From a virus: a stretch of DNA of 40,514 nt. Positions within the stretch are counted from its first letter, which is position 1; each line of letters starts with the position of its first letter. The stretch lies in IMG/VR virus record IMGVR_UViG_3300042731_001459, positions 1 through 40,514 of that record. One strand, written 5' to 3'. The notes under the pieces were generated by a model that saw only the letters and a program-made list of their open reading frames with translations, made no database searches and had not been told where the DNA came from. The position numbers were made by a program, and so were the translations under genes. This document shows, piece by piece, positions 1,928-19,581 of this stretch.

Positions 1928-2065
1928 GTGGAATTGGTCTTGGATTTTCTTTTGGTGTTGCTGACGTTTGTAGTATTTGAGTTAGCCCTGTTATTTACTT
2001 TTGTAGTAATACCGTTAGGGGCTTATATTGTAGCTGACAAGTTTGACTTGTTAGGAAAGGAGTAG
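1928..2065 (+). CDS. Small two-pass membrane protein, 45 aa, GTG start
   Basis: A 45-residue ORF starts at GTG 1928, with AAGGAG at 1916-1921 at ideal spacing. Nearly the whole protein is hydrophobic: a first segment (VLDFLLVLLTFVVF) and a second one (LALLFTFVVIPLGAYIV), then a polar tail DKFDLLGKE. Its stop is followed three bases later by the next start. Function unknown. Confidence 0.65.
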   Translation: MELVLDFLLVLLTFVVFELALLFTFVVIPLGAYIVADKFDLLGKE

Positions 2066-2068
2066 GAA

Positions 2069-2365: not shown

Positions 2366-2562
2366 GTGATAGGATTGAGCCTAGTGGTGTCTATATTAAG
2401 AATAAAGAGTCTGGTAAACTGGTAAAATATTTACCAGAGTTTCTGACTTTTGGTGAGGTACACAGAGTTACCCATGTCAATCCCTTTACAATGTGGGGTA
2501 TCCTAATTAAGACAGACAGACACCAAGAGTGGATGAACGCTGGTTGGTTTGCCCCAATTTAA
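2356..2562 (+). CDS. Hypothetical protein, 68 aa
   Basis: The ATG at 2356 is preferred over an upstream TTG because CTGGAGTA lies just before it. The product looks like a small beta-barrel-type domain with alternating hydrophobic residues and a Trp/Phe-rich C terminus (AGWFAPI). No family recognised. It ends nine bases before tRNA-Arg. Confidence 0.62.
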   Translation: MQIGDRIEPSGVYIKNKESGKLVKYLPEFLTFGEVHRVTHVNPFTMWGILIKTDRHQEWMNAGWFAPI

Positions 2563-2570
2563 TAGAACGT

Positions 2571-2644
2571 GCTCCCATAGCTTAATGGATTAAAGCAACG
2601 GTCTTCTAAACCGTAGAGTCCTTGTTCGAGTCAAGGTGGGAGTG
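2571..2644 (+). tRNA. tRNA-Arg (TCT)
   Basis: The acceptor GCTCCCA (2571-2577) pairs with TGGGAGT (2637-2643). The anticodon stem ACGGT/ACCGT encloses CTTCTAA with TCT at 2605-2607. The T arm is CCTTG-TTCGAGT-CAAGG. Discriminator is G2644, followed by CCT. It reads AGA, by far the most used arginine codon in the phage genes here. Confidence 0.93.
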
Positions 2645-2669
2645 CCTAGAAACTACTATGGAGGTAGAA

Positions 2670-3308
2670 ATGAAAGAAAAGGTATATAATATCGTACTAG
2701 TTTTGGACGAAACGGGTTCAATGATTCCTCATAAGGATGTAACTTTGTCCTCTATTAATGAGTATATCGACTCATTAAAAGCCGATGAGAATAACTATAA
2801 CCTTAATCTAGTAACATTTAATAGTGGTACTGGAACTAAAGTCGTCTTTGAACATAGGGATATAAACTCTGTTTATTATGTTAAAGACAGTCAGTATACT
2901 CCAGACCATATGACTCCTTTGTATGACTCTATTGGGTGGAGTCTAAATAGGTATAGTGATTTAGAGAATGTAATTTTTGTGATTATGACTGATGGACAAG
3001 AGAATTATTCTAAGGAGTATACTCACGAAACCATTTTCAAACTCATTGAAGATAAAACAGAAGAGGGTTGGCAGTTTGTGTTTATGGGTGCTAATCAGGA
3101 TGCTTATGTAACTGGCTCACAATTAGGTTTACAACAAGGACAAACTCTTAGCTTCGATGCCCAAAATCCACAACGAGCTTATAATGCCCTATACTCTGGA
3201 ACAATAAGTTATACTGCCCAAGAGGGCAAACCGAGTTCAACTTTTTTTGAAGATGTAGATATTAGAGAAGATTCCCAAAGCACAAGTAAAAGCAAAACGA
3301 CAGGATAG
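2670..3308 (+). CDS. VWA (von Willebrand factor A) domain protein
   Basis: The 212-residue product starts at ATG 2670, five bases after GGAGG (2660-2664). It is a single VWA/Rossmann-like domain. The metal-ion site is visible as DETGS (residues 13-17, a DxTxS form of the usual DxSxS), a later threonine in HMTPLYD, and the aspartate in IMTDGQEN. The segment FVFMGANQDAY and the Ser/Thr-rich C-terminal tail resemble other phage VWA proteins. Such proteins bind partners through a Mg/Mn site, but their role in phage is not established. No AAA or chelatase partner is seen nearby. Confidence 0.85.
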   Translation: MKEKVYNIVLVLDETGSMIPHKDVTLSSINEYIDSLKADENNYNLNLVTFNSGTGTKVVFEHRDINSVYYVKDSQYTPDHMTPLYDSIGWSLNRYSDLENVIFVIMTDGQENYSKEYTHETIFKLIEDKTEEGWQFVFMGANQDAYVTGSQLGLQQGQTLSFDAQNPQRAYNALYSGTISYTAQEGKPSSTFFEDVDIREDSQSTSKSKTTG

Positions 3309-3312
3309 GGTA

Positions 3313-3546
3313 ATGGAATACGCCGACAAAGAAAAGTATTGGGATGTTCTAGATTCATATTTCCCCTGTGGGGGCTTTTTGGGTGTTTTGGAAAAAGCAG
3401 GAATTGATTGGACTTTGCTAGACAGGGAACTTATAGACGCTATAGCTGATGTTGAGCTTTCGGGTGCAAGTTATGGAAGAAGAATGGCAGAGGCTAGGTA
3501 TTTAGGAAAGATTCTTGCCTTGGAGAGGAAACTAAAAAGCAGGTAA
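3313..3546 (+). CDS. Hypothetical protein, 77 aa
   Basis: Starts at ATG 3313, four bases after the VWA stop, behind AGGATAGGG. It looks helical and contains a FPCGGFLGVL segment near residue 17. A link to the VWA protein is only suggested by adjacency. The TAA stop (3544-3546) lies inside the acceptor stem of tRNA-Gly, an eight-base overlap. Confidence 0.65.
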   Translation: MEYADKEKYWDVLDSYFPCGGFLGVLEKAGIDWTLLDRELIDAIADVELSGASYGRRMAEARYLGKILALERKLKSR

Positions 3547-3612
3547 GACCGTTCTGGATGATGGTGACTGGCTTCCAACCAGTTGAGGTGAGTTCGATTC
3601 TCACTACCTGCT
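3539..3612 (+). tRNA. tRNA-Gly (TCC)
   Basis: The acceptor GCAGGTA (3539-3545) pairs with TACCTGC (3605-3611). The anticodon stem ACTGG/CCAGT encloses CTTCCAA with TCC at 3574-3576. The T arm is GTGAG-TTCGATT-CTCAC. Discriminator is T3612, followed by CCT. It overlaps the upstream coding sequence by eight bases and reads GGA, a frequent codon here. Confidence 0.93.
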
Positions 3613-3626
3613 CCTAGGAGAGATTT

Positions 3627-3806
3627 ATGATAGATTGGCTAATAGTTACACTGTTGTTTTTGATTGTTATACCCTGTATAATAATTGTACAACAGATGAT
3701 TAAGAAGGACAGCTTTTGTCAAAGACATCCTATAGCTTATGGAACTCTCTTGACAATTTCTGTTTATGCTTTGGTTGCATTATATTTTATATACCCACCA
3801 AAGTAA
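3627..3806 (+). CDS. Small two-pass membrane protein, 59 aa
   Basis: Starts at ATG 3627 behind CTAGGAGAG, right after tRNA-Gly. Two hydrophobic stretches, about residues 4-21 (WLIVTLLFLIVIPCIIIV) and 39-56, flank a polar loop (QQMIKKDSFCQRHP). Function unknown; such small membrane proteins are common in early or accessory phage regions. Confidence 0.62.
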   Translation: MIDWLIVTLLFLIVIPCIIIVQQMIKKDSFCQRHPIAYGTLLTISVYALVALYFIYPPK

Positions 3807-3818
3807 AAGGAAGAACTT

Positions 3819-4076
3819 ATGTCTCCGTTTGGAAAGGATGAGGCACTAAGACGTTCTAAAGAAACTTTAGATTGTAGTATGTGTCATAGACGAACAGTTC
3901 ATATTGTTATGAACTATTATGATAGGGATACCTATGCTTGTACAGAGTGTGGAACTAGCTATACAATTTACTTTGAAGGTAAAGAAGCATCTGGTGGAAA
4001 GACTAGAGACAAGAAGAAACCTACACCCCCTCCTAAAAAGATGGGTAGACCTCGAAAGGAAGATGAAGAGGAATGA
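3819..4076 (+). CDS. Zinc-ribbon protein with AT-hook-like tail, 85 aa
   Basis: Starts at ATG 3819 behind AAAAGGAAG. Two CxxC pairs (CSMC near residue 19, CTEC near residue 41) with intervening strands form a classic zinc ribbon. The tail is Lys/Pro-rich with a GRPRK core that resembles an AT hook (minor-groove DNA binding), then acidic EDEEE. A DNA-binding or transcription-related role is plausible but inferred. It overlaps the next gene as ATGA. Confidence 0.75.
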   Translation: MSPFGKDEALRRSKETLDCSMCHRRTVHIVMNYYDRDTYACTECGTSYTIYFEGKEASGGKTRDKKKPTPPPKKMGRPRKEDEEE

Positions 4077-4255
4077 ACCCGTTGGTGTTGTTTCTTGTGG
4101 TACTGGTTGTTTCTGTTTTAGCTCTAAGTTTGCTAAATATGATTATCAACCTGTTTATAAATTATCCAGAAATGAGAAAACTGCTATTAGTAGCTCTAGT
4201 ATCAGTTCTGCTAATTTTAGTACTCTATATACCACAAATTATTAAAGTGAAATAA
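4073..4255 (+). CDS. Small two-pass membrane protein, 60 aa
   Basis: ATG 4073 overlaps the TGA of the zinc-ribbon gene (ATGA), so translation is coupled. Two long hydrophobic segments, about residues 4-28 and 36-55, are separated by NYPEMRK. Function unknown; the short charged C terminus and two spans would be compatible with a holin, but the position far from the lysis genes argues against it. Confidence 0.65.
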   Translation: MNPLVLFLVVLVVSVLALSLLNMIINLFINYPEMRKLLLVALVSVLLILVLYIPQIIKVK

Positions 4256-4270
4256 GAAAGGAGGTTTATA

Positions 4271-4459
4271 ATGCCTGTAAAAAGATGTACCAGAGGTGGT
4301 AAGTCTGGTTGGAAGTGGGGGGATACGGGAAAGTGTTATACAGGTAAGGGTGCTAAAGAAAAAGCTAAGAGACAGGGTAGAGCTATCCACGTAAACAAAT
4401 CAGCTAAAGCTTTACTGCGACTAAGAAGATTACAGAAAAGGATAAACAGTGCAAGTTAA
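4271..4459 (+). CDS. Small basic conserved phage-type protein, 62 aa
   Basis: Starts at ATG 4271 behind AAAGGAGGT, one of the strongest ribosome sites in the window, so it may be well expressed. Very basic, with two cysteines in RCTRGGKSGWKWGDTGKCYT and a Lys/Arg-rich helical tail. I recognise the pattern as one that recurs in small phage hypothetical proteins, but no function is known to me. A nucleic-acid-binding role is an inference from charge. Confidence 0.72.
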   Translation: MPVKRCTRGGKSGWKWGDTGKCYTGKGAKEKAKRQGRAIHVNKSAKALLRLRRLQKRINSAS

Positions 4460-4676
4460 AAGATTTGATGATCCAGATAAAGTAGATAGAGTTATCTTCA
4501 CTATAGAAACTTCTAACTATGAATTAGACAAGGCTTGGACATTTGCTGATAGTTTTCAGCGTATGCTTCTAGAGGAGATAAGGTCTCTTGGGGATGAGCT
4601 CAAGTTGTCCGACTTTTTTATGGGTATGCAGACTATCGCAGAAGTATTGGAAAGGGTAAAGAAAAGTGAGCTTTAG
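4449..4676 (+). CDS. Hypothetical protein, 75 aa, GTG start
   Basis: GTG 4449 follows AAAAGGATAAACA and overlaps the end of the previous gene by 11 bases. The product is an acidic, probably helical protein with several Phe and Leu residues. No domain recognised. Confidence 0.6.
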   Translation: MQVKRFDDPDKVDRVIFTIETSNYELDKAWTFADSFQRMLLEEIRSLGDELKLSDFFMGMQTIAEVLERVKKSEL

Positions 4677-4680
4677 ACAT

Positions 4681-4782
4681 ATGATGGAAAAGTACAGCAC
4701 CTATAAAGAGATGTACAAATCACTTCCTTGGTGGAAAAAAATTCTTGTACGTGTTAGATTTTTCTTTAGAAGTTTACAATAA
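4681..4782 (+). CDS. Possible 33-aa basic peptide
   Basis: ATG 4681 opens a 33-codon frame that fills the space between the previous gene and tRNA-Glu. The product is basic and amphipathic, with a SLPWWKK motif and a hydrophobic/Arg C-terminal half (LVRVRFFFR). The upstream GTGAG is a weak, distant ribosome site. Neat packing supports it; short length leaves doubt. Confidence 0.42.
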   Translation: MMEKYSTYKEMYKSLPWWKKILVRVRFFFRSLQ

Positions 4783-4785
4783 CGT

Positions 4786-4857
4786 GGGGCATTGGTCTAG
4801 TGGATATGATAGTAGACTTTCAATCTATTGACGAGAGTTCGATTCTCTCATGCCCTT
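4786..4857 (+). tRNA. tRNA-Glu (TTC)
   Basis: The acceptor GGGGCAT (4786-4792) pairs with ATGCCCT (4850-4856). The anticodon stem GTAGA/TCTAT encloses CTTTCAA with TTC at 4819-4821. The T arm is GAGAG-TTCGATT-CTCTC. Discriminator is T4857. It begins three bases after the upstream stop. Confidence 0.92.
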
Positions 4858-4862
4858 CTTAT

Positions 4863-4934
4863 GCTTCTTAAGCATAAAAAGTGATGCAGGGGTTTTGTAA
4901 ACCTCAGAACGGAGGGCGGTACTCCGAAGAAGCT
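4863..4934 (+). tRNA. Aberrant tRNA-Thr (TGT)-like gene
   Basis: Five bases after tRNA-Glu, all four stems form. Acceptor GCTTCTT (4863-4869) pairs with AAGAAGC (4927-4933), D stem GCAT with ATGC, anticodon stem GGGGT with ACCTC (one G-U), and T stem CGGAG with CTCCG. The anticodon would be TGT (4896-4898), reading ACA. However, the T loop is GGCGGTA instead of TTCRANY, the D loop AAAAAGTG has no GG pair, and position 8 is A. It may be a tRNA lacking the normal elbow, a decaying tRNA, or a tRNA mimic. Confidence 0.55.
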
Positions 4935-4945
4935 CTAATATAAAC

Positions 4946-5098
4946 ATGGCAGATAGAAGAAAGTGTCCAGAGTGTAAAGAATGTTTAGACTTATGCTTTT
5001 CCCCAAACGGGCAGAGACTTTATATCTGTTGGTTGTGTGGGAAATGGTATGAGCTTATTGTTAAGGAAGGATTAAAGGAGACAGATAAGAGATGTTAG
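4946..5098 (+). CDS. Small zinc-ribbon protein, 50 aa
   Basis: ATG 4946 opens a 50-codon frame with CPEC near residue 7 and CWLC near residue 28, the four-cysteine layout of a zinc ribbon, plus extra cysteines between. The ribosome site is poor (GAAGAAGC at a distance, inside the preceding tRNA-like gene). The end overlaps the next gene by seven bases. The conserved cysteine spacing is the main evidence. Confidence 0.6.
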   Translation: MADRRKCPECKECLDLCFSPNGQRLYICWLCGKWYELIVKEGLKETDKRC

Positions 5099-5229
5099 AA
5101 ACTATTAGTTTTGAACTAGCATTAGCATTGACTATTCTTGGTGGGGTTTGTCTAGTAGTAGGGATTGCTATAGCTTTTATTATTCCCGCTTGGATATGGA
5201 TACCGCCTTCGCAAGAGGAGGAAGAGTAA
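5092..5229 (+). CDS. Small membrane protein, 45 aa
   Basis: ATG 5092 lies inside the end of the previous gene, behind AAAGGAGACAGATAAG. One long hydrophobic span (about residues 9-32, ALTILGGVCLVVGIAIAFII), then a PAWIWIPP segment and an acidic EEEE tail. The stop overlaps the methyltransferase ATG as TAATG, so the two are translationally coupled. The acidic tail is encoded by the methyltransferase's AGGAGG ribosome site region. Confidence 0.62.
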   Translation: MLETISFELALALTILGGVCLVVGIAIAFIIPAWIWIPPSQEEEE

Positions 5230-5939
5230 TGGCTATTCTGTATAACGAAGACAACATGGTTGTAATGCAAGGCTTGGTTAAACTTGAAGAAAGGTTTGAT
5301 TTAATTTATGCAGATATGATGTACGACGACTTCAACTTTTCTTGGGTAGATTTGTGTAGGGAGCTTCTTAGGGATAGTGGAAGTATCTTTATACAGACAG
5401 ACTATAGAAGTGTAGCTGAACTTAAACTTTACTTGGATAGACTCTTTGGTAAGGAGAATTTCGTAAACTGGATAATCTGGAATTACGACTGGGGCGGGAG
5501 AAGCAGAAGACGGTTTGCTAGAAAGCACGATGACATTCTCTGGTACTCAAAGACAGAAGACTACAAATTTTATCCAGAACAGGTAGCGATACCTAAAGTT
5601 ATGGTATCCTCTGGAGTTATGAATCCATCTGGTAGGGAAACCAAAATTCCTACAGATGTTTGGACAGATATTGGAAACTTCCACACTATGTCTTCAGAAC
5701 GAGTAAAGGGAGAGAATGGTAGGAATATTCAATGGCAGAAACCTCTTAGACTTATAGACAGAATAGTTCTAGCAACTACTTTAAGGGGGGATATAATCTT
5801 AGACCCGTTTCTAGGTAGCGGTACAACAGCTATTTCGGCTATGAACCTAGGTAGGGAGTTTGTAGGTATCGAGTGGGATACAGAAGTATTTAGAATAGCA
5901 AAAGAACGTATAGAAAATAATCATTGGCATGTAGCATAA
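5229..5939 (+). CDS. DNA methyltransferase, beta-class (N4/N6 amino type)
   Basis: A 236-residue protein starts at ATG 5229 behind AGGAGGAAGAG; the longer upstream frame has no ribosome site. The catalytic region comes first (ADMMYDDF, residues 28-35) and the SAM-binding DPFLGSGTT (192-200) last, the permuted order of beta-class amino-methyltransferases. The usual DPPY or SPPY is replaced by DMMY. It probably methylates adenine or cytosine in phage DNA against host restriction. No restriction enzyme partner is seen. The last 15 bases, stop included, belong to tRNA-Asn. Confidence 0.85.
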   Translation: MAILYNEDNMVVMQGLVKLEERFDLIYADMMYDDFNFSWVDLCRELLRDSGSIFIQTDYRSVAELKLYLDRLFGKENFVNWIIWNYDWGGRSRRRFARKHDDILWYSKTEDYKFYPEQVAIPKVMVSSGVMNPSGRETKIPTDVWTDIGNFHTMSSERVKGENGRNIQWQKPLRLIDRIVLATTLRGDIILDPFLGSGTTAISAMNLGREFVGIEWDTEVFRIAKERIENNHWHVA

Positions 5940-5997
5940 TTGGTAATGCACTCGGCTGTTAACTGAGATTATGGTGGTTCGACTCCACCCGTGTCAG
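5925..5997 (+). tRNA. tRNA-Asn (GTT)
   Basis: The acceptor TGGCATG (5925-5931) pairs with CGTGTCA (5990-5996). The anticodon stem CTCGG/CTGAG encloses CTGTTAA with GTT at 5958-5960. The T arm is GGTGG-TTCGACT-CCACC. Discriminator is G5997, followed by CCT. It overlaps the methyltransferase gene end by 15 bases and is the last tRNA in the window. Confidence 0.92.
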
Positions 5998-6002
5998 CCT
6001 AC

Positions 6003-6040
6003 TTGGGCAGAACAGAAAAATTCTGCCCAAAAAATTTTAT
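6003..6040 (+). terminator. Hairpin closing the tRNA and small-gene region
   Basis: TTGGGCAGAA (6003-6012) pairs perfectly with TTCTGCCCAA (6021-6030) around an eight-base loop. It is followed by AAAATTTTATCTATTTTT, an imperfect U-rich stretch. The position, five bases after tRNA-Asn and before the packaging module, fits a rho-independent terminator or processing hairpin. A smaller stem TAGAGA/TCTCTA (6048-6064) follows in the leader of the next gene. Confidence 0.55.
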
Positions 6041-6080
6041 CTATTTTTAGAGAGCGGGTCTCTATCTTTAGGGAGTATAA

Positions 6081-6359
6081 ATGTATAGGGAATTTGTAAT
6101 ACCGGTTAGCAGAACAAAAATAAATAAGAAAACTCTTGAGAAGAAAAAACAAACTTGGTTTAAATGTCTCTACTGTTCCAGAGAGTATCTGGATGAGAAA
6201 AAAGCTAAAGAGTGTTTGGATAAGCATGACCTTATCCTCGTTCCAATAGCTAAGAATGATTTAGGGAGACTAAACCAATTTTTGTATTTAAAACAAGATG
6301 AACTTCTCACTGAATCCCTAGTCAGGATTCTACAGAAATACGCAAGGAAAGTAAAGTGA
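6081..6359 (+). CDS. Small zinc-finger protein, 92 aa
   Basis: ATG 6081 follows AGGGAGTATAA. A basic N terminus (KINKKTLEKKKQ) precedes a C2-CH type finger, CLYC around residue 34 with a second Cys and His in ECLDKHD near residue 50. It is the first gene after the hairpin and lies upstream of the terminase genes. A nucleic-acid-binding role is inferred from the finger and charge. Confidence 0.7.
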   Translation: MYREFVIPVSRTKINKKTLEKKKQTWFKCLYCSREYLDEKKAKECLDKHDLILVPIAKNDLGRLNQFLYLKQDELLTESLVRILQKYARKVK

Positions 6360-6556
6360 ATGATAAGATTTGTGTAGAGTGTCAGCTAAAGATAGAAGAT
6401 TCAGACTATCAGATGGTGGCACTAGAGTATCCATACACAAATCTCTTTTTTCATCGGGAATGTTTTGATAGGGTTTTAGATGAGGTTGGAGAGTGGTGTG
6501 GACTTGCTTTATATTTGGCAAGTATTTCAGAAAAGTGGTATAATAGAGGAGAATAG
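6356..6556 (+). CDS. Small zinc-binding protein, 66 aa, GTG start
   Basis: GTG 6356 overlaps the TGA of the previous gene (GTGA), with AAGGAAAG upstream. The ligands CVEC (near residue 6) and HREC (near residue 33) form a Cys2-His-Cys site resembling a half LIM or treble-clef finger. The rest is short and helical. Role unknown; the run of three zinc proteins before the terminase is notable. Confidence 0.68.
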   Translation: MNDKICVECQLKIEDSDYQMVALEYPYTNLFFHRECFDRVLDEVGEWCGLALYLASISEKWYNRGE

Positions 6557-6558
6557 AG

Positions 6559-6708
6559 TTGAAAAAAGAAGAAAAAACAGAGGAAAATCAAACGGAAACA
6601 GCAGAAAACAGAGGAAAAACCTGCCCAAACTGTCAGTCACCGGGAATAATAATTGCTGGAAGATGTGTAACTTGTGCTAGTTGTGGGTGGTCTGCTTGTA
6701 GCTTATAG
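6559..6708 (+). CDS. Zinc-ribbon protein with TTG start, 49 aa
   Basis: TTG 6559 is seven bases after a strong GAGGAG (6546-6551). The first 20 residues are highly charged (MKKEEKTEENQTE). The rest is a compact zinc ribbon: CPNC near residue 22, then CVTCASCGWSAC. This resembles the C-terminal zinc ribbons often seen in phage small proteins and anaerobic ribonucleotide reductases, without other parts of those enzymes. A longer overlapping frame on the same strand is treated as a shadow, because only this frame keeps the cysteine pattern. Confidence 0.7.
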   Translation: MKKEEKTEENQTETAENRGKTCPNCQSPGIIIAGRCVTCASCGWSACSL

Positions 6709-6716
6709 GAGAAGGT

Positions 6717-7418
6717 ATGGTAGATAAAGATAGAGACCCTAGAAGACTAAGAAATCTTGTACAGTACAGGGATTTGACAGACGAACAGTTTGATAAAGCT
6801 ATGGAAGCCTTAGAGCGAGACTGGCTTGATACTGAAACACAGCACCAATTAGATACATTTGATGACCGTGTTGCGGAAACTATGAAACAGTTTGAAGAAG
6901 ATTATGACCTATCCGATATGAAGTTCAATGATAGGGCTACACTTGAAGCATTATCCAGAGCTTACGTAACTCTACAGGATTTTGATACCCTCTTAACCAG
7001 ACTTAGAGCCAGTAACCTGAAAGAAGAATCTTATGTACTTACTGTTATTGACAAGCTAAGTAAGATAGCTTCTGATTATAGAAGAGATATTTCTAGAATG
7101 GAGGATGACCTCAAAATTTCTAGAAAGATTAGAAAATCTACAGGAGAGGAATCAGCTAGACAGGAACTACAGAGGCTAAAAGAGAAAGCCCTTAAATTTA
7201 AAAAACAGGTCATGAGTTATATCTACTGTCCTAAATGTACTATGCTTTTAGCTACAGTTTGGACATTATATCCAGAAGAGGATAATGAATTTCATTTCAA
7301 ATGTAAGAGACCTTTAGACGAAACTGGTAAGAACTTTTGTAATCATGAGTTTGTAATCACAACAAGCGAGCTTCTAGAAGCAGAAGGAACAAACCATCCA
7401 GAGGGATTGAAGTTTTAA
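6717..7418 (+). CDS. Putative terminase small subunit or packaging accessory protein
   Basis: ATG 6717 follows AGGAGAAGGT. The 233-residue protein is mostly charged helix, with a likely coiled coil around residues 105-170, and ends in a zinc-ribbon-like part (CPKC, then KCKRP and CNHEF). It sits directly before the large terminase with no gap. Small terminases are helical DNA-binding oligomers, so position and composition fit, but I see no clear helix-turn-helix and the zinc site is unusual. Assignment is by context. Confidence 0.55.
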   Translation: MVDKDRDPRRLRNLVQYRDLTDEQFDKAMEALERDWLDTETQHQLDTFDDRVAETMKQFEEDYDLSDMKFNDRATLEALSRAYVTLQDFDTLLTRLRASNLKEESYVLTVIDKLSKIASDYRRDISRMEDDLKISRKIRKSTGEESARQELQRLKEKALKFKKQVMSYIYCPKCTMLLATVWTLYPEEDNEFHFKCKRPLDETGKNFCNHEFVITTSELLEAEGTNHPEGLKF

Positions 7419-8969
7419 ATGATTGAGGAAAAACTTTCTCCTGATGACTTCGCCCTTTATGAGATTCTTCGACATCCCGTTCTATGTTGGGAATTCATAC
7501 AGAACGTAGATAGGTATGAACACGAAGAGGAGTTTTGGTTCACCTATTATCAGAAAGAATTTATCTGCGATTTCTCTGCTTATGTGTCTTTATGTTGTGG
7601 TCGGGCAGTAGGTAAGACAGAGGCACTAACTGCTATATTGATTTGGGTTCTTTTGAACAATATCTTTGATGAGTATATTGTATACTCTGTTCCAAACAAA
7701 GCACAATTAGAGCCTGTATGGGCTAGAATTACTAGACTCTTTAGAAGCAACTCCGTACTAAAGACTTTTGTCCTGTCCAAGAAGGGTATTAATAGTTCCA
7801 GCAATACAATAAACCTTCTTAATGGGGCTACCCTCTTGTGCAGAATCGCTGGCACTATGGGAGATGGAAGAAATGTAATTGGTCTCCACACCCCGTTTGA
7901 AATCGTAGACGAAGCCGGTTATTATCCTTGGGGGACATGGGTTGAACTACAGCCTACTTTAAATACTTGGACAGTTGGAATGAGGCTAATTGTATCAGGA
8001 GTTCCAACAGGACTTAGAGAGCAAAACGTACTTTATCGTGTGGATATGCAAGAAGAGTCCTACACTAAGCACCGTGTAGCCGCTCACCAAAATCCCCGTT
8101 ATACTGATGAGGATGAGAAGAGAAGTCTAAAAAATTACGGACAACCAGATAGCGATAACTATATTCACATGGTACTGGGTAGACACGGTAGACCTACGTT
8201 TGCTGTGTTTGATAGAGGCTTGATGGATATTAAGCAATATCCGGTTAGCAAGATAAAGCTAAATGGAATTAAACTAAGTGATGATCTTTCACAATATATT
8301 GAGCGTATTTCTTTACTCCCATCTGTAGAAAAGTCCTACACAGATGTTATTATGGGGATTGACCTAGGATATACAGACCCAACTGCTATTTTAGTTTTGA
8401 AACGAACTAGAGACGGACAGTTCAAGTTCCACGCAAAGATACAGTTGAACAAAGTACCTTATCCAATTCAGGCTCAAGTTATTGATTACCTAGATACAAA
8501 ATATAAACCAAGCTTGATTGGAATTGATGAAGGACATGCAGGTACAGCCGAAGTTCAGAAGCTACAAATGGAGCCTCGCTTTGCACATAAGAACTACAAA
8601 CAAAGACTAATCCCTGTAAAATTTAATGCCAGTGTGGTAATTGGTATGGATGAGGACGGAAAGGAAATTAAACAGAAGACTAGACCATACTCTATTTCTG
8701 TTCTACAGCAGTATTCAAACGAACATAAGATTGTTTATTCAACTACAGATTTAGAAATCGTAGCAGAACTAGAGAGAATGGTCTACATTAAACTTCCTTC
8801 GGGTAACAGAGTATATAGAACTCTAACTCCAAAGGGAGGAAAGGAAGGAGACGATCACTTTACTTCTGCTTTGTTGTGTGCTTCAATGGCGTGGTATCTA
8901 AACCACGACTCCGTATTTGCAGCACCTCAGCAGAAACTACTAATCTCAGCAGGATGGAATATAACATGA
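7419..8969 (+). CDS. terL: Terminase large subunit (ATPase/nuclease)
   Basis: The 516-residue protein packages DNA into the prohead and cuts it. ATPase motifs are visible: a variant Walker A GRAVGKT (residues 61-67) and Walker B EIVDEAG (161-167). The RNase H-like nuclease part has MGIDLGYTD (Asp315, Asp320), IGIDEGH (Asp370, Glu371) and GDDHF (Asp478, Asp479). Length is normal for the family. ATG 7419 abuts the stop of the preceding gene and the end overlaps the portal start as ATGA. Confidence 0.95.
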   Translation: MIEEKLSPDDFALYEILRHPVLCWEFIQNVDRYEHEEEFWFTYYQKEFICDFSAYVSLCCGRAVGKTEALTAILIWVLLNNIFDEYIVYSVPNKAQLEPVWARITRLFRSNSVLKTFVLSKKGINSSSNTINLLNGATLLCRIAGTMGDGRNVIGLHTPFEIVDEAGYYPWGTWVELQPTLNTWTVGMRLIVSGVPTGLREQNVLYRVDMQEESYTKHRVAAHQNPRYTDEDEKRSLKNYGQPDSDNYIHMVLGRHGRPTFAVFDRGLMDIKQYPVSKIKLNGIKLSDDLSQYIERISLLPSVEKSYTDVIMGIDLGYTDPTAILVLKRTRDGQFKFHAKIQLNKVPYPIQAQVIDYLDTKYKPSLIGIDEGHAGTAEVQKLQMEPRFAHKNYKQRLIPVKFNASVVIGMDEDGKEIKQKTRPYSISVLQQYSNEHKIVYSTTDLEIVAELERMVYIKLPSGNRVYRTLTPKGGKEGDDHFTSALLCASMAWYLNHDSVFAAPQQKLLISAGWNIT

Positions 8970-10504
8970 GCGAAATTGAAATAACCTCAAAGACTCCAGA
9001 AGAGTTTGAATCAGAAGGTGAGAATATTGTTGTATATAAGTCACTAGCTGGTATGGTAGCTGGTATTGCTAAATCTTCTGTAGATTTAGGATTAGGAAAT
9101 AATCCTTGGACGGCAGAAGATGTAGACAAGTTTGCTACAAAGAAAGTAACAAAAGAATATAGAAATGTAGTAAGAGCCTGTAGGTTCTTCTACAGACGAG
9201 ACCCGTTTGCCTCTGTTATTATTAACAAGATGGTAGACATAGCCATGTCCGAATTACAGCTAATTCAGGGAAACGTGCCTGATAACCAATTCAGGGTATA
9301 CGAATCCTTTTTAGATGAGCTACAAGACTTTTCTGAAGACTGTGCTTTAGAGTATCTAATCTCTGGTCTTTTGCTACCCGAAATAGAACTTGAAAGAAAA
9401 CCAAAACGTGAATTACAAAAGAGAGGAATTAAGGCTTATAGTTCCCTGTTCCTTCCTGAAAGTTTTTGGATTCGAGACCCCGCTACTATCATAATTAACT
9501 CCCCGCTACTTGGAAGTAAACCCTCGTACTATGTGGAAGTTCCAGATGAGCTTATCCACTTTATTACGCAGAAGGGTGTATACCCGGATGGTACAGAGGA
9601 CAAAGAACTTTACACCCAACTAGCAAGACTATATCCAGATTTTGTGGCACTAGTTGATAAAGGGGAAACAAGAATAAAACTTGAAGTTGATTTAGCTTTT
9701 AGACGCAGAGTACTTACAGATTCTCCATACCCAACTCCCTTCTTATATCCAGCTCTAGAGTCCTTGAGACACAAAAGAAATTTAAGACGGATGGATTATT
9801 CGCTGGCATCCAGGGTTATTACCGCTATTCAGATTGTACGTGTAGGTAATGATACCTACCCGCTAGTTTCTGAAGATGACCAGCAATTAGAAGTATTGAG
9901 AACACAGATGCGTTGGAAGGATTCCCAAAATAAAGAAATAGAAAGAATCTTCCAGCTATTCACAAACCACACAGTAGAAATTGAGTGGATATTACCAGAC
10001 GTATCAGCTCTACTAGATGAGGCTAAATACAAGAGTGTCAATGCAGACATTCTCAATTCCTTTGGCTTTCCAAAGATTTTGGTAACAGGTGAAACAGAAA
10101 GAAGCCAATCATCAGATGCTTCTATTGCTATGGTGTCACCCGAAAAAACTCTAGAAGGTGTAAGAAGGAAAGTAATTAGGGTTCTACGTAAGATTATCTT
10201 TGACGTAGCAGACCAGAATGGTTTTGCCAAAATACCAGAAATTAGATTCTCACCTATGAATCTACGGTCATTCTCAGAGTTCCTAGAAGGACTAATCTTA
10301 TTATACGAGACAGGAAACCTATCTAGAACAGACCTTGATAAAGCACTTGGCTTTGACTTCATGGAGCAAATTGAGAAGAGAGCCGATGAGATTTCTATTA
10401 TCGAGGAGCTTGGAATACCAGAATTTGCACCAGTACCGCACTCAAATTCTCCTAATTCGGAGGATGAAAACACTACTGAAACTAAAGAAAACGAGGAAAA
10501 ATAG
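8966..10504 (+). CDS. Portal protein
   Basis: ATG 8966 overlaps the terminase stop (ATGA) with AGGATGGAA upstream; an upstream extension to 8876 would be buried inside the terminase gene. The 512-residue length, position between terminase and protease/scaffold, a helix-rich middle and an acidic Asn/Glu-rich C-terminal tail (NTTETKENEEK) fit an HK97/SPP1-type portal, the twelve-fold DNA channel at the capsid vertex. No short diagnostic motif exists, so the call is by size and order. Confidence 0.85.
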   Translation: MSEIEITSKTPEEFESEGENIVVYKSLAGMVAGIAKSSVDLGLGNNPWTAEDVDKFATKKVTKEYRNVVRACRFFYRRDPFASVIINKMVDIAMSELQLIQGNVPDNQFRVYESFLDELQDFSEDCALEYLISGLLLPEIELERKPKRELQKRGIKAYSSLFLPESFWIRDPATIIINSPLLGSKPSYYVEVPDELIHFITQKGVYPDGTEDKELYTQLARLYPDFVALVDKGETRIKLEVDLAFRRRVLTDSPYPTPFLYPALESLRHKRNLRRMDYSLASRVITAIQIVRVGNDTYPLVSEDDQQLEVLRTQMRWKDSQNKEIERIFQLFTNHTVEIEWILPDVSALLDEAKYKSVNADILNSFGFPKILVTGETERSQSSDASIAMVSPEKTLEGVRRKVIRVLRKIIFDVADQNGFAKIPEIRFSPMNLRSFSEFLEGLILLYETGNLSRTDLDKALGFDFMEQIEKRADEISIIEELGIPEFAPVPHSNSPNSEDENTTETKENEEK

Positions 10505-13685: not shown

Positions 13686-14198
13686 ATGACTGTTACTAGT
13701 ACAAATTTAGACTACCTACTTCCCTTTCTTAGACAAAGGATTGGAGATATTACCGTAGGGGAATATAGATATACAGATGAATGGTTGCAGACTGCTCTTG
13801 TGGCAGGAGTATGGGAATTAGAGGGACGCTGGTCTAGAAAATATTACATAGACGAGAATAACAATATCCAAAGAAATACAGCAGAGTGGGGATATGAAGT
13901 AGCTAGTCCCCCCATTCTACAGACACAGGATGCAACTGCGGTTATCTTACAGGCGGCTATCATTGTACTAGAAGGTTCGTTAGAAGATTATGCTTGGCAC
14001 TTGGGTAGTTGGAGAGATGCAGAAATTTCATACTCTAACATACAGTCTGGAAAAACAAGAGACAAGAATCTTGATAGATTTATGGAGCAACTAGACAAGT
14101 TACTGCCTTTACCAAAATCAAAGAAACTAAAGAGTTCTTTGAAGGGAAGTCTACCGGGGTACAAAGGAAACAAGCACGAATCAGAAATAGATTACTAA
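13686..14198 (+). CDS. Head-tail connector (adaptor) protein
   Basis: A 170-residue protein with a helical core: a first helix with LLPFLRQRIGD, a YTDEWLQTAL segment, and a later helix (ATAVILQAAIIVLEG). This is the layout of gp6/gp15-type adaptors that bind the portal. The C-terminal tail is basic and flexible. Position after the capsid gene agrees. Assignment rests on fold-like pattern and order. Confidence 0.68.
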   Translation: MTVTSTNLDYLLPFLRQRIGDITVGEYRYTDEWLQTALVAGVWELEGRWSRKYYIDENNNIQRNTAEWGYEVASPPILQTQDATAVILQAAIIVLEGSLEDYAWHLGSWRDAEISYSNIQSGKTRDKNLDRFMEQLDKLLPLPKSKKLKSSLKGSLPGYKGNKHESEIDY

Positions 14199-14210
14199 AA
14201 GGAGAGGAAT

Positions 14211-15446
14211 GTGAAAAAGATTTTATGGATAGGAGACGGAGTTACACCTACAGGCTTTGCTACGGTAAATCATAATATAATCAAATATTTACCAGAAGAG
14301 GAGTATGAGGTTCACCACATAGCGATTAACTACTTTGGAGACCCTCATTCATACAAGCATAAGATTTATCCAGCAAGCAACCCACAAAGTATGCGAGTGG
14401 GAGACCTTTACGGATATAATCGAATTGGGGAATTTGTAAACAAAGACATAGACATGATTTTTATTCTCAATGATATTTGGGTTATCACCCAGTATCTAGA
14501 GATTATCAAACAGCTCTTTGGAGAAAACATTCCTAAACTTGTTGTATACTTTCCTGTAGATGGAGCAGGTTACGATAGAGAGTGGTTCACAAATTTTGAC
14601 ATTGTAACCAAAGTCGTGGTCTATACGGAATTTGGAAAAGCGGTAGTACTGGACGCATATCCAGAACTGCAAGAAAAGCTAGAAGTAATTCCTCACGGAA
14701 ACGACACAAAAACCTTTTACCCTGTAGAGGATAAACTTAAACTACGAAAGGAAACTTTCGACAAAATTCCCGAACTTTGGGAAGAAGATGCCTTTATCGT
14801 ACTAAACGCAAATAGAAACCAGCCAAGAAAAAGAATAGATTTATCTCTTAGAGGCTTTGCTTTGTTTGCGGCTAAGAAACCAAAGAATGTACGATACTAT
14901 CATCACGCTGGATTGAAGGATGCAGGTTGGGATATTCTGAGCTTGGTAAAACAAATAGACAGGGACTTCTTTAAACTCGGACTGTTAGAGGATGGGGATA
15001 CCCTTTTACAAGACAGAATTATTGTAACCAATCTTGAGAAACAGGTACAAAAAGTACCTATCGAAAAGTTAAATGAAGTTTACAATCTTTGTAATGTGGG
15101 AATCAACACTTCGTTGGGAGAGGGTTGGGGATTAATATCTACGGAACATGCAGCAACAAGAGCTGCACAAGTAGTTCCAAATCATACAGCATGTGCTGAG
15201 CTTTTCCATGACTGCGGAATACTTGTAGATATAAGACAGACTGTAAATGACAAAGACACTCTACTAGCTAGAAGCTTTGTAGATATAGTTAGCCTAGCTA
15301 ACGGATTAGAAGCTCTCTACAAGGATAAAAAATTGAGAGAAGAGCTGGCTGAGAAAGCTTATAAAAAGTTTACATCTGACGCATACAATTGGAAAAACAT
15401 AGCTAAAACATGGAACAAAATTTTCAAGGATGTTCTATCAGAATAA
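14211..15446 (+). CDS. GT4-type glycosyltransferase
   Basis: GTG 14211 follows AAAGGAGAGGAAT. The 411-residue protein has a GT-B layout: N-terminal WIGDGVTPTGFATVNHN, a central VIPHGND (159-164), and the donor-site EX7E motif as EGWGLISTE (Glu304, Glu312). GT4 enzymes transfer a sugar from a nucleotide-sugar with retention. Located inside the morphogenesis operon and close to a sulfotransferase-like gene and a repeat fibre, it probably glycosylates a virion protein rather than phage DNA. The target is inferred. Confidence 0.88.
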   Translation: MKKILWIGDGVTPTGFATVNHNIIKYLPEEEYEVHHIAINYFGDPHSYKHKIYPASNPQSMRVGDLYGYNRIGEFVNKDIDMIFILNDIWVITQYLEIIKQLFGENIPKLVVYFPVDGAGYDREWFTNFDIVTKVVVYTEFGKAVVLDAYPELQEKLEVIPHGNDTKTFYPVEDKLKLRKETFDKIPELWEEDAFIVLNANRNQPRKRIDLSLRGFALFAAKKPKNVRYYHHAGLKDAGWDILSLVKQIDRDFFKLGLLEDGDTLLQDRIIVTNLEKQVQKVPIEKLNEVYNLCNVGINTSLGEGWGLISTEHAATRAAQVVPNHTACAELFHDCGILVDIRQTVNDKDTLLARSFVDIVSLANGLEALYKDKKLREELAEKAYKKFTSDAYNWKNIAKTWNKIFKDVLSE

Positions 15447-15464
15447 ACTAAGCAGGAGAAAACA

Positions 15465-16007
15465 ATGCTAAAGAGAGATAAAATGAGAATTACTGGAAAG
15501 GTTACTGCTATTGTTCGTGATAAAGATGGCAATATTAAAAGACATGCTCCGAATTGGTGGCAAAAACTTCTAGGTCTTCCCGGTAGCTTAATGATTTCTG
15601 TAAATCATAATATTGTTACCAATGAGGGAGATGCCCTTGTTGCTGACCTTCTTCAAGAAACTCCAGAAAGAACCAAAGTAGACAATGCTAATGGTGTTAT
15701 CGGAGTTGGTACTGGGTTTACTACAGAAGCTAAAACAGTAGATGCCCTTGTTACACAGACTGGTTCAGACGAGGCAATGGACGCAACTTACCCACAAACT
15801 AAGGGAGCTTGGGCAGCAGCCGATGATAATGTAATTGTTTACCGTTCAACTTTTGAAGCTGGAGACTTAAATGATACAGGTATTGACGAAGCCTTACTAG
15901 GTAATGGTACAGATACTATGGCTTATGCTCAAATTTCACCAGCCGTAGATGTAACTACCGCAGATACACTAGAAGTTACTTGGGAGATTACTTATCTAGG
16001 TTCGTAA
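15465..16007 (+). CDS. Putative virion structural protein, 180 aa
   Basis: ATG 15465 follows GCAGGAGAAAACA. A basic N terminus (MLKRDKMRITGKV) leads to a Gly/Ala/Thr-rich beta domain with VTNEGDALVADLL near residue 51 and VGTGFTTEAKTVDALV. This pattern resembles small phage structural proteins found near connectors or fibres. Placed between the two glycan enzymes, it is one candidate substrate. No enzymatic motif seen. Confidence 0.6.
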   Translation: MLKRDKMRITGKVTAIVRDKDGNIKRHAPNWWQKLLGLPGSLMISVNHNIVTNEGDALVADLLQETPERTKVDNANGVIGVGTGFTTEAKTVDALVTQTGSDEAMDATYPQTKGAWAAADDNVIVYRSTFEAGDLNDTGIDEALLGNGTDTMAYAQISPAVDVTTADTLEVTWEITYLGS

Positions 16008-16702
16008 TGATTACTACATTTCTCTACAATATGGGAAGAGTTGGTAGTAATTCCATAAACAGAGCCCTTTATGATAACGGGGTTAATACCCTTCATGCTC
16101 ATTGGCTCAGTGGGGAATTTCCAGAAGCCGAGTTTGCAACCACTAAAGAAAAGATTGTACGGCTTCTTCAAAAAGATGAAGCCCCACCACTAAAAATTAT
16201 AGTTCCAATTAGAGAACCAATGGCTAGAAATCTTTCAGCCTTTGTATTCAATTCTATAAAATATGGAATAAGTGGAAGACAGGAAACTCCAGAAGAACTT
16301 CAATCACTATTCATAGAAAGGTATAATATACACTTTCCTGATTTGTGGTTTGAACGGGAACTAATGAAGAACCTATCTTTTGACCCATTTAAGAAAAAGT
16401 TCAATTATCGAAAAGGGTATAAGTTTTATAGAGCTGGTAAACACAAACTAGTTATACTAAGGCTGGAAAACGCAGAAAGAGCTTTTCCTAAAATAGCTAA
16501 GAAGTTTCTTGGAATTAGAGGAGCTTCACTACCACACAAGAGTAATCTAGAAACCAAAAAGTATATTGGTGCTAAGTATAAGAAACTAAAAGAACTAACA
16601 TATCCAAAAGATTTTGTAGAGAGAGTCTACAATTTGAAGTATGTTAGTCACTTCTACACAGAGGAAGAGATAGAGGAACTTACGAAAAAATGGACAACGT
16701 AG
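16007..16702 (+). CDS. Sulfotransferase-like / capsule-type enzyme
   Basis: ATG 16007 overlaps the previous stop as TAATG; the longer frame upstream is internal to the previous gene. The 231-residue protein begins with MITTFLYNMGRVGSNSI, a glycine-rich loop like the 5'-phosphosulfate loop of sulfotransferases, and has PIREPMARNLSAF (67-79), typical of sulfotransferase-like capsular polysaccharide proteins. It would use PAPS to sulfate a glycan, but no PAPS synthesis gene is visible. Partnering with the glycosyltransferase is inferred. Confidence 0.72.
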   Translation: MITTFLYNMGRVGSNSINRALYDNGVNTLHAHWLSGEFPEAEFATTKEKIVRLLQKDEAPPLKIIVPIREPMARNLSAFVFNSIKYGISGRQETPEELQSLFIERYNIHFPDLWFERELMKNLSFDPFKKKFNYRKGYKFYRAGKHKLVILRLENAERAFPKIAKKFLGIRGASLPHKSNLETKKYIGAKYKKLKELTYPKDFVERVYNLKYVSHFYTEEEIEELTKKWTT

Positions 16703-17052
16703 CCTTTAAAGTTTACTATGAGAACGGTGAAACCTTTATAGGTAGACCAGAAGATGCTCCCTACCTTGGAGTAGCCCTTATTGTAGAGCTTGATGAAAAC
16801 CATAATAAAAGAATTGTTAGTGGTGGGGATTACTATATTTGGAATCCTGAAAGAATGTGCTGGATTTCCGGTGATGTGCGCTCTATGGAGTATTATAAAG
16901 AGGTACGAGGATGGAAAACACATATCTGTGGTGTAATGATGCACCAAGAAGACTACAACAACATGTGGAGAAAAGCAGATAAGGACGAAGACTTTCCAGA
17001 GCGTACAGCTTATTACCCTTGGGAAGAGAAACCTAAAGAACTAGATACATAG
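16690..17052 (+). CDS. Hypothetical protein, 120 aa
   Basis: ATG 16690 lies inside the last 13 bases of the sulfotransferase-like gene, behind GAGGAACTT. The product is acidic, rich in Trp and Tyr (WNPERMCW, YYPWEE), and probably a compact soluble domain. No known family. Coupling to the sulfotransferase-like gene suggests a related role, such as substrate binding, but nothing in the sequence shows it. Confidence 0.6.
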   Translation: MDNVAFKVYYENGETFIGRPEDAPYLGVALIVELDENHNKRIVSGGDYYIWNPERMCWISGDVRSMEYYKEVRGWKTHICGVMMHQEDYNNMWRKADKDEDFPERTAYYPWEEKPKELDT

Positions 17053-17061
17053 GAGTAGCCA

Positions 17062-19161
17062 ATGGCACAACCCGTCTATACACAAGCTGACTGTGCTTTT
17101 TATAATGACGGTACTGAGGCTGGAAGTACTCTTATTTCTGGTGGCAATATCATCGTAGGGAATACAGGTGCAGAGGATAAAGCCTTTGATACCACAATTC
17201 TCTTTAGAGCCCTTATTCAACTAACAGAGAAAACAGAATCTAATACTTTTGATTTACTTATACAAAAGAATAATACTGGCGGTTATGATACCAGAGCTAA
17301 CATTACAGGCATTACAGCCATTGATTCTGCCAACCTGACTAGAGGAGATGACACTACTCAGAGGCTAGGTTCTGGCACATTTGATGCCACTAATGCAGGT
17401 GTTGGAGATAATAGTACAACTGTTAGTGAATCATTTACCCTAAATCAAGAATGGGAAGTTTTATTTTCATTTGAAGTTGATGAAGCAGATGTAGTTGATG
17501 GTGATTTCTTTGACTTACGAGTATATCAAGATGACGGTTCTACAGCCTTAAATGCCTATTCGGAAACTCTAAGAGTCACTGTAGCTAAAGGTGGAGCTAG
17601 TCTTCAAAGAACTCTTTCAGACTCAGTAGGCATTACAGACACACTAATAACTTCTAGAGCGTTGGCTAGAACAAATACAGATACCGTAGGAATTACAGAC
17701 ACAATTTCAGCGGCAGTTGGTAAAATAGTAGCACTTGCCGATACTGTAGGCATTACAGACACAATTTCTACAGTTGTTGGAAAGGTAGTAGCTATTGTAG
17801 ATTCAGTAGGGATTACAGATGCTATTACCAATGCTAGAAACTTGGCTAAGACTATTTCTGACAACGTGGGAATCACGGATGCCCTATCTAACGCTAGAGC
17901 TTTGTACAGAACATTAACAGAGAATGTCGGCATTACGGATACCATTACTACAGCAAGGGGACTTTACAGAACAGTTACGGATTCAGTTGGAATTACAGAT
18001 ACAGTATCAAGAAGCTTAGTTCTTCTAGCGTCTATTTCTGATACTGTAGGAATTACAGACTCCGTTACAACTTCTATAACAAGAGCTCTACTGTTGCAAG
18101 ATTCTGTAGGAATTACAGATTCTTTGAGCACCGCTAGGATAATTGTTAAGTCTATTGCAGATTCAGTCGGCATTACTGATACAGTAAATACAGCCCGTAG
18201 TCTATATGTAACCTTCTCGGATACTGTTGGAATTACGGACAACCTTACAAGAAGTCTTGTTATTTTCGCAAGTATCACAGATTCGGTGGGAATTACAGAC
18301 AGTCTAACACGGTCTATTGCTAAAGCAATTACAGTACAAGATACTGTTGGAGTTACAGATTCCTTAACTACAGCAAGAGCAATTGTTAAGCTTATTTCTG
18401 ATAGTGTCGGCATTACAGACGCACTAACTACAGCAAGAAACCTTGTTGTCAGCTTTGCAGATTCAGTCGGTATAACAGATGCGATAGATGCTGTCAAAGG
18501 AGCATCTACAAAGTATGTCAATATATCTGACTCAGTAGGCATAACAGATAATCTATCTACGTCAAGGGAACTCAAAAGAACCTTCCTAGAAAGTATGGGT
18601 ATTACGGATGACTTAGCACTGGCTAGGGAAATCAAAAGAACTTTCTCTGAAAGTGTAGGGATTACCGATACACTAACAAGTGTAAAGAAGATAGCAATTT
18701 TACTTGCAGATACAGTAGGTATTGTGGATAACCTGTTTACAGCTCGTGCTGTAGCTGTGACTCTAGCGGAGAATATGGGCATTACAGATGACCTACAAAA
18801 CGCTAGAAAACTGTATAGAAGTATTTCAGATGTTGTAGATACTACAGATTTACTTGGAACTGCACGAAATATTGTCCTAATTCTTATAGATGCAGTTGGT
18901 ATAACCGACAATATTACCACGATTCGTGGTATAATAGTTAATATAGTGGATACTGTAAGCATTACAGATTCATTGACAAACCTTAGAGGAATTGTAATAA
19001 CAATTACAGACACAGTTGGAATCACCGATGTTCTGTCTACAGTAGTGACTGGAATTGGAAGAGCTATAAGAAGAGGAACACGAGCAATTTTCGGAAATCC
19101 TGATGGTTGGAGACCAACACTACAATCTCCAGACTATGATGATGATATTCCTAGGGAGTAA
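17062..19161 (+). CDS. Repeat fibre protein with 24 VGITD repeats
   Basis: A 699-residue protein starts at ATG 17062 behind AGGAGTAGCCA. Residues 1-185 form a beta-rich N-terminal domain (many Gly, Thr, Asn). About residues 187-669 consist of 24 copies of a near 20-residue unit, consensus D-[ST]-V-G-I-T-D-x-[LIV]-x-x-A-R. The tail is basic, then acidic (RAIRRGTRAIFG, then PDYDDDIPRE). It lies between head connectors and neck genes, so I infer a rod-like head or neck appendage. Its Ser/Thr content makes it a plausible target of the neighbouring glycan enzymes. Confidence 0.75.
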   Translation: MAQPVYTQADCAFYNDGTEAGSTLISGGNIIVGNTGAEDKAFDTTILFRALIQLTEKTESNTFDLLIQKNNTGGYDTRANITGITAIDSANLTRGDDTTQRLGSGTFDATNAGVGDNSTTVSESFTLNQEWEVLFSFEVDEADVVDGDFFDLRVYQDDGSTALNAYSETLRVTVAKGGASLQRTLSDSVGITDTLITSRALARTNTDTVGITDTISAAVGKIVALADTVGITDTISTVVGKVVAIVDSVGITDAITNARNLAKTISDNVGITDALSNARALYRTLTENVGITDTITTARGLYRTVTDSVGITDTVSRSLVLLASISDTVGITDSVTTSITRALLLQDSVGITDSLSTARIIVKSIADSVGITDTVNTARSLYVTFSDTVGITDNLTRSLVIFASITDSVGITDSLTRSIAKAITVQDTVGVTDSLTTARAIVKLISDSVGITDALTTARNLVVSFADSVGITDAIDAVKGASTKYVNISDSVGITDNLSTSRELKRTFLESMGITDDLALAREIKRTFSESVGITDTLTSVKKIAILLADTVGIVDNLFTARAVAVTLAENMGITDDLQNARKLYRSISDVVDTTDLLGTARNIVLILIDAVGITDNITTIRGIIVNIVDTVSITDSLTNLRGIVITITDTVGITDVLSTVVTGIGRAIRRGTRAIFGNPDGWRPTLQSPDYDDDIPRE
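17620..19068 (+). repeat. 24 tandem coding repeats of 60 bases
   Basis: Units start every 60 bases from 17620, each beginning with the Asp or Glu before [ST]VGITD. Unit 15 (from 18460) carries three extra codons. Units diverge in sequence, but GTAGG(A/C)ATTACAGA recurs. Units 7-10 (17980-18219) and 11-14 (18220-18459) match as two 240-base blocks in protein sequence, which shows growth by block duplication. Confidence 0.9.
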
Positions 19162-19164
19162 AGG

Positions 19165-19581
19165 ATGCTAACAAGAGTTATTGACGACATAAGAGGACAG
19201 ATTGGAAGGGATGTTACATTCTATGTAGCTACCCTATCTGGTTGTCAGATATGTACGTTAGACCCTGTAACTGATACTTCAACCGATTCACTTTGTTCTG
19301 GCTGTGATGGAAAATATTGGATACCAATATATAATGGAACTACAGTTACCGGACACATTACTTGGGGAAATGCAGACCTTTTGGATTGGAGAACAGGTGG
19401 ACAACTCTTTGAGGGAGACTGTAGAGTACAGGTAAAATATACTATAACCAATCTAGGTCTTGTAGACAGTGCGGAGTACTTGAAGGTAGATAATAAAACT
19501 TTAGAAATTAAATCAAAAATACTTAGAGGTGTTCCGTCTATAAATAGAATTTTATTAGATTGTATTGAAAAGGAGAAATGA
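19165..19581 (+). CDS. Putative head-closure (stopper) protein with CxxC zinc site
   Basis: ATG 19165 follows AGGGAGTAAAGG. The 138-residue product has CQIC near residue 27 and CSGC near residue 44, a probable structural zinc site, in a beta-rich domain with WGNADLLDW and a strand-like C terminus. The position after the adaptor and before the neck genes is where head-closure proteins sit. Zinc-containing variants exist among these proteins, but the identity is inferred. Confidence 0.55.
   Translation: MLTRVIDDIRGQIGRDVTFYVATLSGCQICTLDPVTDTSTDSLCSGCDGKYWIPIYNGTTVTGHITWGNADLLDWRTGGQLFEGDCRVQVKYTITNLGLVDSAEYLKVDNKTLEIKSKILRGVPSINRILLDCIEKEK

Follow-up and report, generated by a model that had tools for sequence, protein, structure and literature searches.

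Glycosyltransferases of mycobacteriophages glycosylate capsid and tail-tube proteins (Freeman et al. 2023, as cited in PMC12619734 and PMC11256854); in these phages the genes are placed towards the 3' end of the genome (Maravista), and the two citing papers mention no sulfotransferase. Sulfotransferase genes have also been seen in phage genomes, where their function was stated to be unclear (PMC10580990). Here we analyze positions 14,211 to 19,161 of a viral DNA of 40,514 nucleotides (IMG/VR record IMGVR_UViG_3300042731_001459, positions 1 to 40,514, the whole of which we call the window), where a glycosyltransferase gene lies inside the head-to-tail operon and is accompanied by a predicted sulfotransferase gene situated between two putative fibre genes (Table 1). 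We consider the chances about evenly balanced that the putative enzyme, dependent on 3'-phosphoadenosine 5'-phosphosulfate (PAPS), modifies the virion, most likely its fibre, that the glycosyltransferase glycosylates a virion protein, and that the fibre genes form an exchangeable cassette. Virion glycosylation is already known and phage sulfotransferases are known as genes, but a sulfated phage virion appears to be new: a full-text literature search, with most subscription journals outside its coverage, returned no report of one, and no paper joining NKWYS and sulfotransferase was found.

The sulfotransferase-like protein matches the NKWYS family (PF10364) with E 1.3e-19 (71 bits against a curated cut-off of 25.1), which is the result of a profile search that a preliminary description of the window had proposed after noting a PAPS-loop-like MGRVGSNSI in this protein. 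Cellular members of the family lie in exopolysaccharide clusters, while the phage member lies between fibre genes; family membership is what they have in common. The phage gene probably starts with the ATG at 16007 and not with the TTG at 15980; this ATG overlaps the stop of the 180-residue protein gene as TAATG, and there is no Shine-Dalgarno sequence of its own outside the coding end of that gene. A scan of viral contigs with the single protein sequence found nothing, and relatives there were recovered by an alignment-based scan; among annotated phages no relative was found, either with this protein or with its relative from contig L073 as query. The family alignment consists of 23 viral relatives, all of which match NKWYS, and Sulfotransfer_1, _2 and _3 are matched in addition by six, four and three of them, respectively. 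A profile search of the PDB recovered heparan sulfate 3-O-sulfotransferase (3-OST) at E 0.0018 through the 3'-phosphate-binding (3'-PB) segment; the single sequence gave only chance matches there. The AlphaFold model has a mean predicted local distance difference test score (pLDDT) of 91 and a predicted template modelling score of 0.89, and after re-alignment with VIA its best 50 PDB rows are all sulfotransferases (Z 7.8 to 9.8, alignments of 157 to 183 residues, 3.5 to 4.2 Å). The highest are Teg12 (Z 9.8, 3.7 Å, 171 aligned) and NDST1 (Z 9.7, 3.6 Å, 178 aligned), and StaL, 3-OST and cytosolic SULTs follow so closely (about 1 to 2 Z lower at most) that they are tied with these.

The residues of the putative PAPS site are conserved as follows: the 5'-phosphosulfate-binding (5'-PSB) loop reads YNMGRVGSNS, with K or R at position 11 and S or T at position 14 (S14 in the window) in 23/23 relatives, and the 3'-PB motif is R69...S77, eight residues apart, with R69 in all 23 and S77 in 22. 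H32, which follows a strand at residues 28-31 and is His in 18 of the 23, we take to be a candidate catalytic base by its likeness to SULT His108. The fold, the 5'-PSB loop and the 3'-PB motif are shared with NDST1, 3-OST and Teg12/StaL, from which the phage protein differs in its shorter length (231 residues) and in sequence (10 to 14% identity). The model shows a predicted sulfotransferase fold with PAPS-binding motifs, which suggests that the protein is a PAPS-dependent sulfotransferase; as modelled, the fold does not choose between a sugar and a protein acceptor. Two viral contigs, L076 (102 kb) and L077 (75 kb), carry three NKWYS genes each, one of them with an extra N-terminal domain.

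What are the two proteins that the sulfotransferase gene separates? Profile searches gave no function for either of them. The AlphaFold model of the 180-residue protein (pLDDT 82) has phage tail and neck proteins in its first 12 VIA rows, including phi812 baseplate proteins and the Sf14 and Bas63 neck proteins, and it aligns with the HFTV1 tail protein (9h4p; Z 9.3, 2.8 Å, 131 aligned, 21% identity), Listeria phage A511 gp105 (6hhk; Z 8.3, 3.8 Å, 118 aligned), a phi812 arm segment (9fko; Z 8.1, 3.6 Å, 117 aligned) and the GP4 fibre-tail adaptor (8jou; Z 6.4, 3.2 Å, 105 aligned). It shares a fold with these proteins, at an identity of 4 to 21%; among viral models it also matches proteins of tail fibres and tail-collar fibres. 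The collection of phage isolates holds no sequence homolog of it, and a viral-contig scan found homologs at 25 loci. Where at least 5 kb of downstream sequence was available, a VGITD-type repeat protein follows the adaptor homolog within 0.01 to 6 kb in 15 of 17 loci (16 of 17 if the weaker homolog in L121 is counted); these rod homologs are 449 to 1553 residues long and occur in related and unrelated phages, and L125 to L127 have, where the rod would be, a protein of 507 to 577 residues without repeats. The 699-residue protein of the window has 24 VGITD-like units with a period of 20 residues and one step of 23, and 26% of its residues are Ser or Thr, so the Ser/Thr-rich 24-repeat rod of the preliminary description is borne out. 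Because of the adaptor's fold and this recurrent pairing we regard the two genes as a fibre cassette, in keeping with the appendage role that had been proposed for them; the 180-residue protein is predicted by its modelled fold and its adjacency to the fibre gene to be the adaptor that would join the fibre to the particle. In two phages, L114 (8502-8993) and L128 (8832-9164), the space between adaptor and rod encodes a small cysteine-rich protein that on inspection resembles CxxCxxCC and has no Pfam match.

The glycosyltransferase matches phrog_2170 (E 1.8e-40) and falls just under the cut-off of PF00534 (E 8e-6, 25.9 bits against 26.4; 28.4 bits with neighbouring pieces). Its closest solved relative, aligned over nearly the full length, is B736L (PDB 3oy2, E 6.7e-14), likewise a viral enzyme but from an algal (chlorella) virus with a different genome setting; its EX7E motif is EGWGLISTE, and the earlier assignment as a GT4 enzyme holds. 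Glycosyltransferases of Synechococcus phages S-CBS4 and S-EIV1 and Tetrasphaera phage TJE1 are 30 to 37% identical to it over the full length; that of S-CBS4 is also in the head region, after the portal gene, whereas the other two lie outside the virion block, and the annotation of these three phages shows no sulfotransferase beside the glycosyltransferase, unlike the window, which has one nearby. A single-sequence scan of viral contigs with this protein found nothing. In the lineage set (52 contigs found with the terminase as bait, 22 dereplicated members of which span 13686 to 19165), the gene sits between the 13686 and 19165 homologs in all 22 spanning members, and in 16 of these the two are separated from each other, on the 19165 side, by 26 to 71 nt and no intervening gene. 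The glycosyltransferase is therefore constantly linked to virion genes. Some viral glycosyltransferases modify DNA (Pyle et al. 2024, as cited in PMC12619734), and such a role in making hypermodified bases, in place of protein glycosylation, is extremely unlikely here: the gene belongs to the late virion operon, and the thymidylate synthase family PF00303 is absent from 22 lineage records of up to 96 kb, some incomplete, in a search that did not cover other base-modification routes.

Are the five genes one virion-modification module, as the preliminary description proposed? Synteny rules this out. Most relatives carry the glycosyltransferase without adaptor, sulfotransferase or rod beside it, and because its place is constant with or without the remaining genes we consider it a core gene of the lineage. 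The fibre cassette follows it in the window, L113 and L115 (and in L081 and L109, both cut by the contig end), precedes it in L118, L119 and L120, and lies elsewhere in other relatives, namely between 13162 and 13686 in L121, after 6717 in L116 and after the tail fibre in L110/L111; it is also present in phages that otherwise show no similarity (L114, L117, L123, L124, L128 and L132), and adaptor and rod occur without an adjoining glycosyltransferase or sulfotransferase as well. With five different sites among the relatives, and a presence in unrelated phages too, the cassette is therefore mobile. The sulfotransferase has a distribution of its own. Only the window and L081, where the contig end truncates it, have it in the slot between adaptor and rod; in L036/L037/L038 and L075 it comes just before the terminase, and in the unrelated phages L070 to L074 directly after the major capsid protein (MCP) gene. 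From this gene order it appears to be an insert within the fibre cassette, and in L116 a methyltransferase occupies the matching slot. L023, which lacks the cassette, has a sulfotransferase of another type (Sulfotransfer_1).

The co-occurrence across related phages that had been suggested as a check was thus found in part, since the order glycosyltransferase-adaptor-sulfotransferase recurs in L081 and the five genes do not otherwise travel as a set. Between the window and L081 the proportion of synonymous differences is 0.60 to 0.84 in every gene, near saturation, with the nonsynonymous rate (dN) well below the synonymous rate (dS), so this order has outlasted the saturation of synonymous sites; protein identities are 82% for the adaptor, 78% for the sulfotransferase, 75% for the MCP, 60% for the glycosyltransferase and 58% for the portal. 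The sulfotransferase dN/dS is about 0.15, from the 49 codons available in L081. This bears on the alternative of a sulfotransferase-fold protein that has no activity, or has a small molecule as its substrate, and stands in the cassette by accident. The scattered occurrence of the NKWYS family and its still putative activity could be cited for it; the PAPS-site residues, kept by 22 to 23 of the 23 relatives, and the gene's unchanged position in L081, despite the saturation of dS and with this low dN/dS, make this alternative very unlikely.

Glycan and sulfotransferase genes in the late operon are seen in related phages, many of which carry a cluster of glycan genes in the interval from the 6717 homolog to the terminase; in the window 6717 adjoins the terminase and there is no such cluster there. 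The L075 cluster (627-8687, directly before the terminase) encodes a nucleotidyltransferase, CTP_transf_3, an RraA-like protein, NeuB (E 1.6e-53), two MptE-like proteins, an FkbM methyltransferase, Sulfotransfer_1 (E 3e-17) and NKWYS. Clusters at the same place contain two GT2 enzymes, a nucleotidyltransferase, an MptE-like protein and NKWYS in L037, an epimerase and methyltransferases in L042, and methyltransferases, Sulfotransfer_1 and an aminotransferase-like protein in L023. In L034 an island at 6281-10259, between 13162 and the expected 13686 in the capsid-to-connector operon, encodes three GT2 enzymes, a methyltransferase and a CxxCxxCC protein. The GT2 gene before the L012 terminase (8572-10008) has an apparent intein-like (Hint) insertion, ETPVLT...WVKLEDLNIGDEL.

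We propose the following scheme: The glycosyltransferase would belong to the core late genes of a lineage of uncultured siphophages; its constant position in the virion operon suggests that its most likely role is to glycosylate a virion protein as the particle is assembled. The adaptor and rod genes would be an exchangeable fibre cassette, into which the sulfotransferase gene was probably inserted so as to be translated directly after the adaptor (TAATG). The enzyme most likely draws on host PAPS and puts sulfate on the fibre, the acceptor being either the sugar added by the glycosyltransferase or the protein itself, and the sulfate would give the particle a negative surface that might alter adsorption or protect it. 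It is gene position that points to modification of the virion, since the lineage always keeps the glycosyltransferase in the virion operon and the window's sulfotransferase between fibre parts, which gives the proposal a named substrate. Several observations weigh against it. A Foldseek search of the PDB with the sulfotransferase model gave no match under E 0.001. No APS (adenosine 5'-phosphosulfate) kinase match was found in the window (matches above cut-off occur only in relatives G014 and G042), so PAPS must come from the host. L037 and L075 have the sulfotransferase gene before the terminase, a long way from the fibre genes. The sulfotransferase-bearing records L070, L073, L076, L077 and L078 lack any match to PF00534 or PF00535, so that a sugar made by the phage need not be the acceptor. 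On the supporting side, the order kept in L081 and the place beside the MCP gene in L070 to L074 link the enzyme to virion genes, and NKWYS occurs in 4 of 9 cassette-bearing and 0 of 14 other lineage members (Fisher p 0.014, in a test that ignores kinship and incomplete contigs).

The preliminary description had the two enzymes build a sulfated sugar on an appendage protein. Its appendage cassette and sulfotransferase fold stand; a joint pathway, yielding a sulfated glycan on the fibre or another virion protein and, in relatives with NeuB, a CMP-sugar synthetase and two sulfotransferases, a more elaborate and possibly sialic acid-like sulfated coat, is possible but somewhat doubtful, as the family also occurs without a detectable glycosyltransferase. 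That same occurrence, the glycosyltransferase without sulfotransferase in most relatives and the Ser/Thr content of the rod would fit a sulfotransferase that acts directly on Tyr, Ser or Thr of the fibre, independently of a glycosyltransferase aimed at, for example, the capsid or tail tube. We think this unlikely, in that sulfotransferases of glycans and glycopeptides are among the closest structural neighbours (tied, however, with cytosolic SULTs) and the family is kept inside glycan clusters of related phages.

Modification of the host surface by phage-encoded enzymes is well known, and the two enzymes could instead alter the host envelope (capsule or lipopolysaccharide), blocking for instance competing phages or released progeny. 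NKWYS is named for capsule synthesis and its cellular relatives lie in polysaccharide clusters, which keep weight on this explanation; one relative, on a Thalassovita plasmid, is accompanied by gmd, GDP-fucose synthase and glycosyltransferases. It is nevertheless rather improbable here, given that the genes are in the virion operon and overlap-fused to the fibre adaptor, that neither a membrane anchor nor a flippase was seen beside them, and that tyrosine integrase (PF00589) is absent from 22 lineage records, a finding by which lysogenic conversion was rejected. Should virion sulfation prove true, phages would be adding sulfate to themselves; views of adsorption, particle stability and evasion would have to change, and virion diversity would have a chemical layer that is invisible to sequence alone.

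The five open reading frames (ORFs) lie where they had been placed before, all in the same direction and with short or overlapping gaps. Portal and MCP-like genes are upstream and tape measure and tail genes downstream, so the locus is inside the structural operon as described; the two flanking genes, which had been called connector genes, gave no match in profile searches and carry that label by synteny only. The 120-residue protein matched no family in profile searches, and its 30% identical homolog in L113 is likewise encoded between adaptor and rod. Promoter and terminator scans gave counts at or below the shuffled expectation.

Table 1. Genes and repeats of the locus and its flanks in the window.
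Feature	Position	Strand	Basis
Conserved neighbour of the glycosyltransferase gene, upstream side	13686..14198	+	Synteny (connector label by synteny only)
GT4-type retaining glycosyltransferase, core lineage gene	14211..15446	+	GTG start; phrog_2170, PDB 3oy2, EX7E, synteny
Fibre adaptor-like protein of the virion (180 aa), opens the cassette	15465..16007	+	AlphaFold fold matches, 25 viral-contig homologs
NKWYS-family (PF10364) sulfotransferase-fold protein, 231 aa	16007..16702	+	PF10364, motif residues, AlphaFold
Protein of 120 aa without family match	16690..17052	+	Start overlaps end of sulfotransferase gene; 30% homolog in L113
Putative fibre rod, 699 aa: N-terminal domain, 24 repeats of ~20 residues, basic C-terminus	17062..19161	+	Repeat count, homologs
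Repeat array, VGITD motif, 60-nt period	17616..19030	+	Direct-repeat families, motif positions
Conserved neighbour, downstream side	19165..19581	+	Synteny; 26 to 71 nt after the glycosyltransferase gene in relatives lacking the cassette here

Clues to the host are few. MCP relatives among genome contigs come from only two metagenome-assembled genomes, labelled Brevinema andersonii and Ca. Bathyarchaeota; these labels disagree and the contigs are possibly mis-binned. The window encodes a GH25 endolysin, which points to a host with peptidoglycan, and directly after it, at the end of the late operon, a caspase-like protein (39588-40433; PF00656, E 1.8e-24). The early part of the window contains a gene for a VWA-like protein (2622-3308; phrog_7371 E 3e-46, PF00092 just under the cut-off). 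In L050 an HNH-type ORF (14708-16464) follows the MCP gene and ends nearly as the MCP does (GIYVLDNVTT), which would fit a homing endonuclease that had carried along a copy of the 3' end of the capsid gene.

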